A stretch of 64,000 nucleotides of DNA from Desulfovibrionales bacterium (GTDB taxonomy: Bacteria; Desulfobacterota; Desulfovibrionia; Desulfovibrionales; Desulfonatronaceae), in assembly GCA_007693505.1 (NCBI GenBank), contig REDL01000036.1:1-64000 (forward strand), given 5' to 3'. Within the stretch, counting starts at the first letter, position 1; each line of letters starts with the position of its first letter. The position numbers were made by a program, and so were the translations under genes. Of the stretch, positions 35,750-61,496 are shown piece after piece. Under the pieces are notes generated by a model. The model saw only the letters and a list, made by a program, of their open reading frames with translations, was not told the origin of the DNA and did no database searches.

Positions 35750-35800
35750 GAAAAAATGATAAATGAAAAGGGGAGTCGGGCGATAAGCCGGGTTCTGTCT

Positions 35801-35870
35801 CCCCGCGCTCACTTTGCCACTGCCATCCTCTTGTTCATTGATAGATGTTCACGGCAAAGAAAGCGCGGGG
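35801..35870 (-). repeat. Palindromic expansion 3 in rnpB (P19 position)
   Basis: Arms CCCCGCGCTCACTTTGCC and GGCAAAGAAAGCGCGGGG pair over 18 positions with two adjacent mismatches. It sits between GAATGACAGCC and GACAGAACCCGG, where many bacteria have a P19 hairpin and E. coli has none. Confidence 0.82.
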
Positions 35871-36045
35871 CGGCTGTCATTCCTCTTGGACCGGAATTGC
35901 TTCCGGCCTCCAGCAACCTACCCGAGGACCTTGGCCGGGCCGGCCTCAGGCGTCCTCCTATTTGGTCTTGCTCCGAACGGGGTTTGCCGAGCTTGCCGCG
36001 TCACCACGGCAACTGGTGGGCTCTTACCCCACCGTTTCACCCTTA

Positions 36046-36114
36046 CCCCGCACTCAGTTTGCCCTGGTGAAATGTCATTTCGAGACACTTTCCCTGGGCA
36101 AACTGAGTGCGGGG
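36046..36114 (-). repeat. Palindromic expansion 2 in rnpB (P12 position)
   Basis: Arms CCCCGCACTCAGTTTGCCC and GGGCAAACTGAGTGCGGGG form a 19-bp perfect stem. Compared with expansion 1, one C-to-G change in the arm is matched by a compensating change in the opposite arm, so pairing is conserved. It lies at the tip of the helix between CAGACCG and GTAAGGGTGAAACGG. Confidence 0.85.
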
Positions 36115-36198
36115 CGGTCTGCTTTCTGTGGCACTTTCCCGGGGTCACCCCCACTGGACGTTATCCAGCGTCCTGCCCTATGGAGCCCGGACTTTCCT

Positions 36199-36267
36199 CC
36201 CCGCACTCACTTTGCCTGGGAAAAAGGTCTCAAGAAGATCAATTTCCAGGGCAAAGTGAGTGCGGGG
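36199..36267 (-). repeat. Palindromic expansion 1 in rnpB (P3 position)
   Basis: Arms CCCCGCACTCACTTTGCC and GGCAAAGTGAGTGCGGGG form an 18-bp perfect stem around a loop of about 33 nt, inside the P3 helix just 5' of the GAGGAAAGTCC core. The arm is shared with the two other expansions. Confidence 0.85.
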
Positions 36268-36388
36268 CGACAGCCTGCCCGACTCCCAATTCGTTATATA
36301 AGACAGCGCCTCGCGCAGGTCAAAGTCATTAGTGCGCGAACTGAGGAGGACGTCTCGGGGAGCGGGGGATCTGGAATCAAACCAAAAA

Positions 36389-59226: not shown

Positions 59227-59847
59227 AAGGAGCGTTGGTTGCGTCCTCTCTCGCTTCCCTTCAATTTCCATCAATCCCACACGTACCGATCGTCCCAATC
59301 CATTCCGTGTTTTCGGAACAATGCCCGGTATTCGTCCTGAAAAGATACCTTCTGGTGATGGTCCACCTGCCCGACGATATATGCCCGTACCATTTCCACA
59401 TTCGATGCGCTTACCGAAAATGCTCCGTATCCGGCCTGCCAGGAAAACGACTGCAATCGTGGATTGTGTTCCTTGATCCATGTGCTGGAGACACGTTTGA
59501 GTTCCTTGACCCAGTCCGCCGTCGTGATTGTACGCCCCAGCCGACAGAGCAGATGTACATGATCCTCGGTACCGCCAACGAGGGTCGGCGGACAATCCAG
59601 GTGGGCGGAGATGCCGCCGAGGTAGGCGTGCATTTCCGAGCGAAGGTCGGCGTCGAGCAAGAATGGTGCGCGGTTTTTGGTTGAGAAGATGAGGTGGATA
59701 TGGATGAGAGCCAAAGATTGGGGCATGGCGGAAACTCTTTTGGACGCAACCCCTTTGGGGTTGATACGATGTTGGTCAACAAACCCAGGGTAGCCCAGCC
59801 CTTGGCTGGTCAACCCTGGGCTAGGGGACGGAATCCCGTTGGGATTC
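59227..59847 (-). mobile_element. IS200-like element with transposase and right-end hairpins
   Basis: This unit holds the intact transposase gene (59271-59726) and on its upstream side three hairpins: CAACCCC/GGGGTTG (59747-59763), CCCAGGGT...ACCCTGGG (59784-59820) and GAATCCCGTTGGGATTC (59831-59847). The opposite side abuts the hairpins of deleted copy 1. Subterminal hairpins rather than terminal inverted repeats fit IS200/IS605-type single-strand transposition. Confidence 0.78.
59271..59726 (-). CDS. IS200/IS605-like Y1 (HUH) transposase, REP-associated type
   Basis: A 151-residue transposase starting MPQSLALIHIHLIFSTKNRA. The HUH histidines are in GTEDHVHLLCRLG and the likely nucleophilic tyrosine is in VEMVRAYIVGQVDHH, preceded by WQAGYGAFSVSAS. 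The length is normal, so it is probably intact. It cuts and joins single-stranded DNA at hairpin-marked ends. The ATG at 59726 is chosen for family fit; the longer frame is made of translated palindromes. It may also mobilise the deleted copies at 48.1, 59.0 and 60.0 kb. Confidence 0.9.
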   Translation of the reverse strand: MPQSLALIHIHLIFSTKNRAPFLLDADLRSEMHAYLGGISAHLDCPPTLVGGTEDHVHLLCRLGRTITTADWVKELKRVSSTWIKEHNPRLQSFSWQAGYGAFSVSASNVEMVRAYIVGQVDHHQKVSFQDEYRALFRKHGMDWDDRYVWD

Positions 59848-59858
59848 AAGAAAAGCCA

Positions 59859-60169
59859 ATGCCCCAAAGGGGCATCGTCACCCAGCCCAGGGTTGCGGCG
59901 GCCACGCCGCTACCCTGGGACCAGCGCCCCATTCTCACCCCCAACCCCAACGGGGTTGCGTCCTCTCCCATTCCCGTCAATCCCAGACGTACCGGCCATC
60001 CCATCCGATTTCGTGTCTGGAATTATCCGTGGAGTCGACCAGACCGGCACGTCCCACAAGACGGGACGCAACCCCGTTGGGGTTGTTTCTCTCTCCTTGC
60101 ATAATCCCAGGGTAGGCCAGCCTGTGGCTGTCCAACCCTGGGCTATGGGACGATGCCCCGTTGGGGCAT
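59859..60169. mobile_element. Internally deleted copy 2 of the IS200-like palindromic element
   Basis: Six hairpins: ATGCCCC/GGGGCAT (59859-59875), CCCAGGGT...ACCCTGGG (59886-59919), CAACCCC/GGGGTTG (59942-59958), CAACCCC/GGGGTTG (60069-60085), CCCAGGGT...ACCCTGGG (60106-60142) and ATGCCCC/GGGGCAT (60153-60169). Between the third and fourth hairpins the minus strand reads HEIGWDGRYVWD, almost the last residues of the transposase (HGMDWDDRYVWD). The layout mirrors copy 1. Confidence 0.82.
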
Positions 60170-60209: not shown

Positions 60210-61496
60210 TCAAAGACTCGCGTAATCCCGCGGAAGCTGCTTCGGAACCTGCTTCATGCCGGATGCGGACAATTCCTGTTCAAAGGCCGACATGATTTCC
60301 TGTTCAAACCAATCCCGCATGGTTTTCCAGCCTTGCTCGCCAATGGGCTGGTTGCCGTGGGCCAGAATGGAGTTGTTCCGCACCTTGGTGAACGTCAACA
60401 GGGATTTCCCGTTGTTCCTGGCCCATTGGCCCAAGGCCCCTTGGGACTTGAGCCGAACAAGTTCCCAGGCGTAATACAGGGGAGCTTGATACTTCCCTTC
60501 CCGATTTCTGCGCAGTGCCCGATCCCGAGGCTCTCTCAGTTCATCGGGGATAAACTCCTCGGGAATATCCTTCGTATCGATGTCGAAATCCTTGCGCAAC
60601 ACCCACTGGGCGATCCACTCAACAATCCGGTACAGGCGGGCCACGGCATCATCGAAACGGCCCTGATCGCTTCTGCGCAGGGCGTTCAGCCACAGATCAT
60701 AAATTCTGAAAGGCTCACTGAGCGGTTTGTCGGAACAAAGCAGGTCAATGGCCATGAAGTAGTGCGGATCCTTGGACGCGATACCGCGCCGATAAAGCGC
60801 CAACAGTTCCCTTGCCCGTTGATGATCGAAGCGGTCCCAGGCATCAAAGGCCTGGCTGAGATTCATGGCCCGGATGTGTTCCTGCTGCAGTTCCATGGAT
60901 CGGGGCCGGTCCATGCGCCGAATGCCGGCAAAAGCCTGGGCGTAGGCATGATCGGACCATGCGGCGAGATGGCGGCGCAATTCTCGGGAGAACCTGACCC
61001 GCTCCACGCTGGCCGGGAAACCCCATTGCGTCCCATCGCAGACCCGCTCCAGGTTATTGCGCGCCCCCCGGACAAGATGCAGCTCGGCGTTGTTCTCCAA
61101 GGCCGCCAAGACCAGGCCGGCGGTCATGGATTTCGTGCCGCCGGTGTAATCGGCATAGAGCGCGCCCCCCTGGTCTTCCTGGGCAGCCTGTTTCATGCAC
61201 TGGTCCACGTTCAGCACGATATCGTCAATGTCGTCCGGATCCACGAGCACGACGGAGTAGTGTTCCTGTTCGATTCCCAACTGGGTTGGAATGTTCGGCA
61301 AAGTGGGCTTCTGATCCTCTCGGTTCGCCTTGATCACGCTCCCCTTGCCGGTGATCATCGGCTCGGAGCTTTTGCTGCCCGGCGCATCCCTGGAGCAGAT
61401 AAAGCAAGTGTGATCCGGGCAGATGGTTTGATATGCCGTTAACAGCGGCTCATGCGAACCGCCGACCGTGCAAAAAAGGACTTTCCCGCGCATCAT
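60210..61496 (-). CDS. CARF-HEPN effector resembling the TIGR02710 CRISPR-associated family
   Basis: A 428-residue protein. The N-terminal CARF-like domain starts VLFCTVGGSHEPLLTAYQTI and has LYADYTGGTKSMTAGLVLAA (about 120-140), the ligand-loop phrase of TIGR02710/Csm6-like proteins. The C-terminal HEPN domain has VRNNSILAHG (Arg373 to His380, R-x6-H). It is likely an RNase switched on by cyclic oligoadenylate. Unlike csx1 it is not in the cmr operon: its ATG overlaps the MNT gene stop (ATGA), making it the last gene of the Lon-HEPN-MNT-CARF operon. Confidence 0.82.
   Translation of the reverse strand: MMRGKVLFCTVGGSHEPLLTAYQTICPDHTCFICSRDAPGSKSSEPMITGKGSVIKANREDQKPTLPNIPTQLGIEQEHYSVVLVDPDDIDDIVLNVDQCMKQAAQEDQGGALYADYTGGTKSMTAGLVLAALENNAELHLVRGARNNLERVCDGTQWGFPASVERVRFSRELRRHLAAWSDHAYAQAFAGIRRMDRPRSMELQQEHIRAMNLSQAFDAWDRFDHQRARELLALYRRGIASKDPHYFMAIDLLCSDKPLSEPFRIYDLWLNALRRSDQGRFDDAVARLYRIVEWIAQWVLRKDFDIDTKDIPEEFIPDELREPRDRALRRNREGKYQAPLYYAWELVRLKSQGALGQWARNNGKSLLTFTKVRNNSILAHGNQPIGEQGWKTMRDWFEQEIMSAFEQELSASGMKQVPKQLPRDYASL

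Follow-up and report, generated by a model that had tools for sequence, protein, structure and literature searches.

Three peripheral helices of a Desulfovibrionales RNase P RNA carry members of a dispersed family of short palindromic elements

In this study we report that three stems in the RNase P RNA gene (rnpB) of a Desulfovibrionales bacterium are members of a dispersed family of short palindromic elements, found in three families of one order of sulfate-reducing bacteria. The element family itself is new, while a short palindromic element in rnpB is already known from Rickettsia. The gene was studied in a window of 64,000 nucleotides (positions 1 to 64,000 of contig REDL01000036.1, assembly GCA_007693505.1), and the term is used below for this whole stretch. 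According to the reading we prefer, to which we assign a probability of about 0.7, the dispersed family seeded helices P3, P12 and P19, and recombination, template switching or re-insertion overwrites the copies within one gene.

The gene belongs to class A RNase P RNAs, as it gave a full-length match to Rfam model RF00010 above the curated cut-off of 100 bits, with all core helices present (Table 1). The first-pass annotation had described one 18-nt arm, CCCCGC(A/G)CTCA(C/G)TTTGCC, shared by the P3, P12 and P19 hairpins above an intact core, with a change in the P12 copy compensated in the partner arm, and all of this was confirmed. It had placed the gene at 35771-36287, which is the right locus with ends 1-3 nt off the Rfam match, and its description of each arm as accompanied by its complement is exact for P3 and P12, whereas the P19 arms pair at 16 of 18 positions only. 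It was also right that such sharing is not accidental: by our own estimate, chance would produce about 2e-6 matches of 18 nt among unrelated segments of an RNA of this length (519 nt). Assembly error is excluded, because the same arms recur in several independent assemblies of the genus, one of them a single contig. As to the idea that identical arms might pair across helices, this would be possible and is not favoured, because calculated cross-duplexes are in every case 1.9-7.5 kcal/mol weaker than the pairing with the own partner arm, and in the predicted core fold the arms of P3, P12 and P19 all form local hairpins (z = -13).

Table 1. Features of the window discussed in the text (positions in the 64,000-nt stretch)
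Feature	Position	Strand	Details
rnpB, class A RNase P RNA, 519 nt	35768..36286	-	RF00010, 320 bits, model 1-367, not truncated
Palindromic element in P3	36199..36267; arms 36199-36216 / 36250-36267	-	arms perfectly complementary; exact match to family pattern
Palindromic element in P12	36046..36114; arms 36046-36063 / 36097-36114	-	perfect pairing, C-to-G change compensated
Palindromic element in P19	35801..35870; arms 35801-35818 / 35853-35870	-	two mismatches, 16/18 complementary (89%)
IS200-like Y1 transposase	59274-59867	-	PF01797, 78 bits; one of eight Y1_Tnp matches in the genome; no arms nearby

A search of the source genome for the 18-base arm, which had been proposed along with the original observation, returned rnpB only, and among about 85,000 species scanned there were, apart from one Desulfonatronum contig, about 24 scattered single matches, a number close to chance expectation; the exact 18-mer was on these grounds rejected as a dispersed repeat. 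The core of the arm is dispersed all the same and is missed by the 18-mer. Its 10-mer is over-represented in relatives, equally on both strands, and the family was searched with the pattern GCRCYYACTT-N10-70-AAGTRRGYGC, both arms exact, using the reversed pattern as a control. Exact hairpin copies number 108 in genome G302, 32 in G141, 15 in G305, 14 each in G300 and G303, and 0-4 per genome in the source genus, while the control yielded 0 copies in nearly all genomes (0 vs 108 in G302). The source genome itself holds one further exact copy outside rnpB, at C71:4723-4782 (contig 71). The palindromic element suspected of having spread within rnpB is therefore real, and its dispersal extends beyond this gene.

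The ends of the element are defined by 83 distinct copies, which have the form YCCN-GCRCYYACTT(T/G) ... AAGTRRGYGC-N'GGR. Positions -2 and -3 are C-G in 82 of the 83 elements, and at position -1 all four base pairs occur, paired in 75 of them (77 with G-U). Pairing drops at position -5, and neither -5 nor -6 has conserved bases. Within the arms, the Y-R positions switch by transitions which are compensated in the partner arm; the interiors are diverse in both sequence and length, with 31-117 nt between the GC ends. Being short and dispersed, bounded by terminal inverted repeats of fixed sequence and coding for no protein, the copies have the basic features of a MITE or a small palindromic repeat.

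Location of the copies was studied in 540 kb of G302 containing 51 of them. Open reading frames of at least 150 aa cover 68% of the sampled DNA and contain 3 of the 51 copies, all three in or beside an RNA gene, and the non-coding copies are mostly found at the tips of other hairpins. Among the hosts are 23S rRNA (two genomes, two sites, one a 5'-domain hairpin and the other apparently helix 68), every one of the four cobalamin riboswitches detected in the G302 sample together with further riboswitches, a hairpin directly after the SRP RNA, hairpins resembling terminators, and larger palindromes that are themselves dispersed. One of the latter, AGTCCGTTSAAAAA...TTTTTSAACGGACT, occurs in Desulfonatronum genomes and bears the small element at its tip (L182, L279, L280, L281, L185, L186), and G302 has several dispersed repeat families (L187-L201, L226-L245), for example with arms GCCGGAAGCC/GGCTTCCGGC, that hold the element in the middle. 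In G302 these carrier repeats multiply the small element, and because many of the 108 copies ride in them, the independent contexts are few. For 25 non-redundant contexts the flanks outside the element pair better with each other than with shuffled partners (-14.4 vs a mean of -12.0 and a best value of -13.8 in 200 shuffles). With rnpB and redundant contexts left out and the riboswitch copies taken as one context, 2 of 10 contexts in G302 fall in Rfam RNAs, which account for 1.6% of the DNA (p 0.011), a modest enrichment. A separate observation was made in genome G027 of family f3, where a match to the type II hammerhead ribozyme (L202:1489-1576, 57 bits) has in its stem the exact arm GCACCCACTTTG...CAAAGTGGGTGC; rnpB of this family is without the element.

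Eight genomes, the source genome included, make up a family with a single genus. Apart from these hairpins, the rnpB core of the genus is 91-97% identical to that of the window. The P12 arm type is present in 8 of 8 genomes and the P19 type in 7 of 7 readable ones, while the P3 type occurs in 5 of 8, P3 being shortened in the other three. The source assembly contains no SSU rRNA; a contig deposited as Desulfonatronum sp. has the same rnpB hairpins as genome G004, and on this comparison we take the genus to be Desulfonatronum. Sampled rnpB helices of families f2 (a large one), f3 and f4 are short and unrelated to the arm. The arm core GCACYYACTTT is present in P12, and often in P3 as well, in families f5 and f6, which partly bears out the objection that the arms could be an ancestral feature of distant genera; the P19 arm is present in the source genus and, separately, in G317. 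In G307 helix P12 is minimal where G144 holds the element, and because the cores of these two genes are 90% identical, the P12 element has been gained or lost recently.

The gene conversion invoked by the first-pass annotation finds support for P3 and P12. Their alignment score averages 39.7 within the same genome vs 19.4 between genomes (p 5e-5; 0 of 20,000 permutations reached the observed value, with the shared ancestry of genomes uncorrected), and families taken singly point in the same direction, weakly in the source genus (p 0.025) and with p 0.0003 and 0.033 in the others. Three close relatives with cores 93-97% identical form a mosaic of hairpin types in P3/P12, namely A/A in G315, A/B in G316 and B/B in G314; G306 has a nearly identical hairpin in both helices, and in P12 of G302 one element is nested within another. 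The P3 and P12 copies of these relatives have visibly overwritten one another. Between the source gene and that of the sister species G006, the apical interior of P12 matches at 30 of 33 positions only as the reverse complement, while P3 has the same orientation in both; this inversion is accounted for by recombination between the hairpin's two arms or by re-insertion the other way round. The suggestion of conversion does not extend to P12 and P19 in the source genus. Their likeness shows no within-genome excess there (p 0.28), recent homogenisation of this pair was rejected as not significant, and the likeness may simply reflect a shared subfamily.

Put together as a mechanism, elements of about 45-120 bp, with ends YCCNGCRCYYACTT and its complement around a free interior, would insert mostly at the tips of existing hairpins, lengthening a peripheral helix and leaving the RNA core untouched. 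Helix P12 would have been occupied earliest or most widely, followed by P3, and P19 in the source genus and separately in G317. Once a gene holds two copies, recombination, template switching or re-insertion would overwrite one of them and could flip its interior. We infer that the elements are mobile at the DNA level, that the tips of hairpins or cruciforms are preferred as targets beyond being merely tolerated, and that the homogenising step is conversion and not repeated insertion. The mover would be a transposase or a process of hairpin copying. Counting against this reading are the lack of any mobilising enzyme among the genes examined, the rarity of flanking direct repeats, the replaced 23S tip described below, the small number of independent contexts, the modest Rfam enrichment and the weak or absent homogenisation in the source genus.

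A narrower form of this explanation, with a probability that overlaps with it, takes the elements as ordinary MITEs, that is, non-autonomous copies derived from an insertion sequence that shares their terminal inverted repeats; we consider it somewhat unlikely. It agrees with the fixed inverted repeats, the small size, the intergenic location, the nested copies and the convincing direct repeats that flank the element in two contexts, GCAAG in the L232 riboswitch (a related riboswitch has GGCAAGTAGG there) and GGGACTGTCCC at L240:11390. Against it stand the absence of such repeats from most contexts and of any general target-site duplication, the very diverse interiors, and the search for a parent insertion sequence in 400 kb of G302, where arms occur almost only as close pairs and no long copy was found. 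The transposases argue in the same sense. Genome G302 gave 31 Y1_Tnp matches, and no paired arms were found near 30 such loci, apart from one isolated arm-like match, while G005, G300 and G317 carry elements and have no Y1_Tnp gene; as far as the flanks of these genes show, an IS200/RAYT-type transposase was for both reasons rejected as the mobiliser. No mobilising enzyme was found, and a plasmid search with the whole rnpB gave distant partial matches only. Carriage by phages was also rejected: nine viral contigs fit the bare pattern, none of the nine has the YCCN/NGGR ends, and they were judged chance or unrelated palindromes. Viral contigs L286, L292 and L294 contain palindromic repeats of the type CTAAGTTAGTRAGCACTYACTT, the ends of which are unrelated to the element. 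Elsewhere in the window, 60213-61496 on the reverse strand encodes a 428-aa protein with a Csm6 HEPN domain (PF09670), a candidate CRISPR ancillary nuclease.

Compared with L228, the 23S site of L214 is missing the native tip TCGTGTCTTCGGGCACGG and has the element in its place; at this one compared site the tip is replaced and not interrupted, unlike in classical insertion. A new class of selfish hairpins might spread by replacing hairpin tips in DNA, or through structured RNA, and repeatedly colonise catalytic, ribosomal and regulatory RNAs at positions where nothing but a helix grows longer, a proposal we regard as unlikely. If it were true, hairpin copying and not a classical transposase would yield the paired variation at position -1, the replaced 23S tip, the nesting and the inverted interiors.

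It is likewise unlikely that the arms are a selected RNA module, in which a GCRCYYACUU/AAGURRGUGC duplex is recognised by a protein or by a nuclease, for example an RNase III-like trimming enzyme such as acts on the intervening sequences of 23S rRNA, and the helices converge on it. The compensated arm changes with their Y-R transitions would be expected of such a module, as would hosts that are mostly transcribed structured RNAs and the occupation of every cobalamin riboswitch sampled in G302. Recognition of the arm alone does not predict that helices of one genome have interiors in common, even inverted ones; moreover, many copies lie inside other dispersed palindromic repeats without known RNA, and close relatives with a normal core miss the arm in P3, P12 and P19 (e.g. 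P12 of G307). A purely intragenic origin, in which a single helix, probably P12, gave rise to the P3 and P19 copies and conversion kept them alike with no mobile element, fits the confinement of the exact 18-mer and the real P3-P12 homogenisation. It is very improbable: the paired arm cores at dozens of unrelated sites in relatives (reversed control 0), including 23S rRNA and riboswitches, and on contig 71 of the source genome itself largely refute it as a full explanation, and it could survive for the P19 copy only.

Among known systems, the closest precedent for a dispersed family in rnpB is the Rickettsia palindromic elements (RPE), which, according to the review PMC2229807 (citing Ogata et al. 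2002), occur in rnpB and tmRNA. Both are short palindromic dispersed elements found in rnpB and in one further structural RNA. Compared by description, RPE measure 105-146 bp and are known for in-frame protein insertions, whereas the present elements avoid protein-coding DNA; unlike RPE, they are located at the tips of hairpins, are present in three helices of a single RNA and undergo homogenisation between P3 and P12. As far as the literature searched shows, hairpin-tip reuse, three helices in one RNA and exchange between helices exceed the RPE precedent, and no paper describing this element family was found there. Repeats are said, by the title of a 1997 paper by Vioque, to lie within the cyanobacterial RNase P RNA gene, and Elhai et al. 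in 2008 reportedly dealt with small dispersed repeats of cyanobacteria nested in themselves. Location inside rnpB and nesting are points of likeness with the present elements; the cyanobacterial STRRs are tandem heptamers and not palindromes built of a fixed arm around a free interior. The known intervening sequences (IVS) of 23S rRNA occupy mainly helices 25 and 45. The Coxiella IVS sits in helix 45. Our elements resemble IVS in being hairpins that extend a peripheral 23S helix and differ in that both 23S sites lie outside helices 25 and 45. Like REP sequences, which bear an unpaired GTAG or CGTC tag (PMC3733652), they are short palindromes in intergenic DNA; unlike REP/RAYT systems, they have no conserved unpaired tag at the foot of the hairpin (-5, -6) and no paired arms at the Y1_Tnp loci described above. 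YPAL/RU-2 of Yersinia is comparable in that its targets include or border on dyad symmetry (PMC2229807). These elements are of 168 bp, with internal inverted repeats and an unrelated host, and copies in structural RNA are not reported in that paper.

The lengths of peripheral helices vary in RNase P RNA, 23S rRNA and riboswitches, and the source of new segments is seldom visible. Here it is visible: one palindromic family furnishes several essential RNAs with finished stretches of helix, and where an RNA holds more than one copy, these then overwrite one another. Likeness of helices inside one RNA can therefore mean recombination and not common function, a point that matters for covariation analysis and for phylogenies built on RNA. 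The elements also offer a natural system for asking whether hairpin or cruciform tips attract insertion. Lastly, unusually long rnpB matches of 420-573 nt were noticed in families f45 and f13 of the same phylum (L162-L170).
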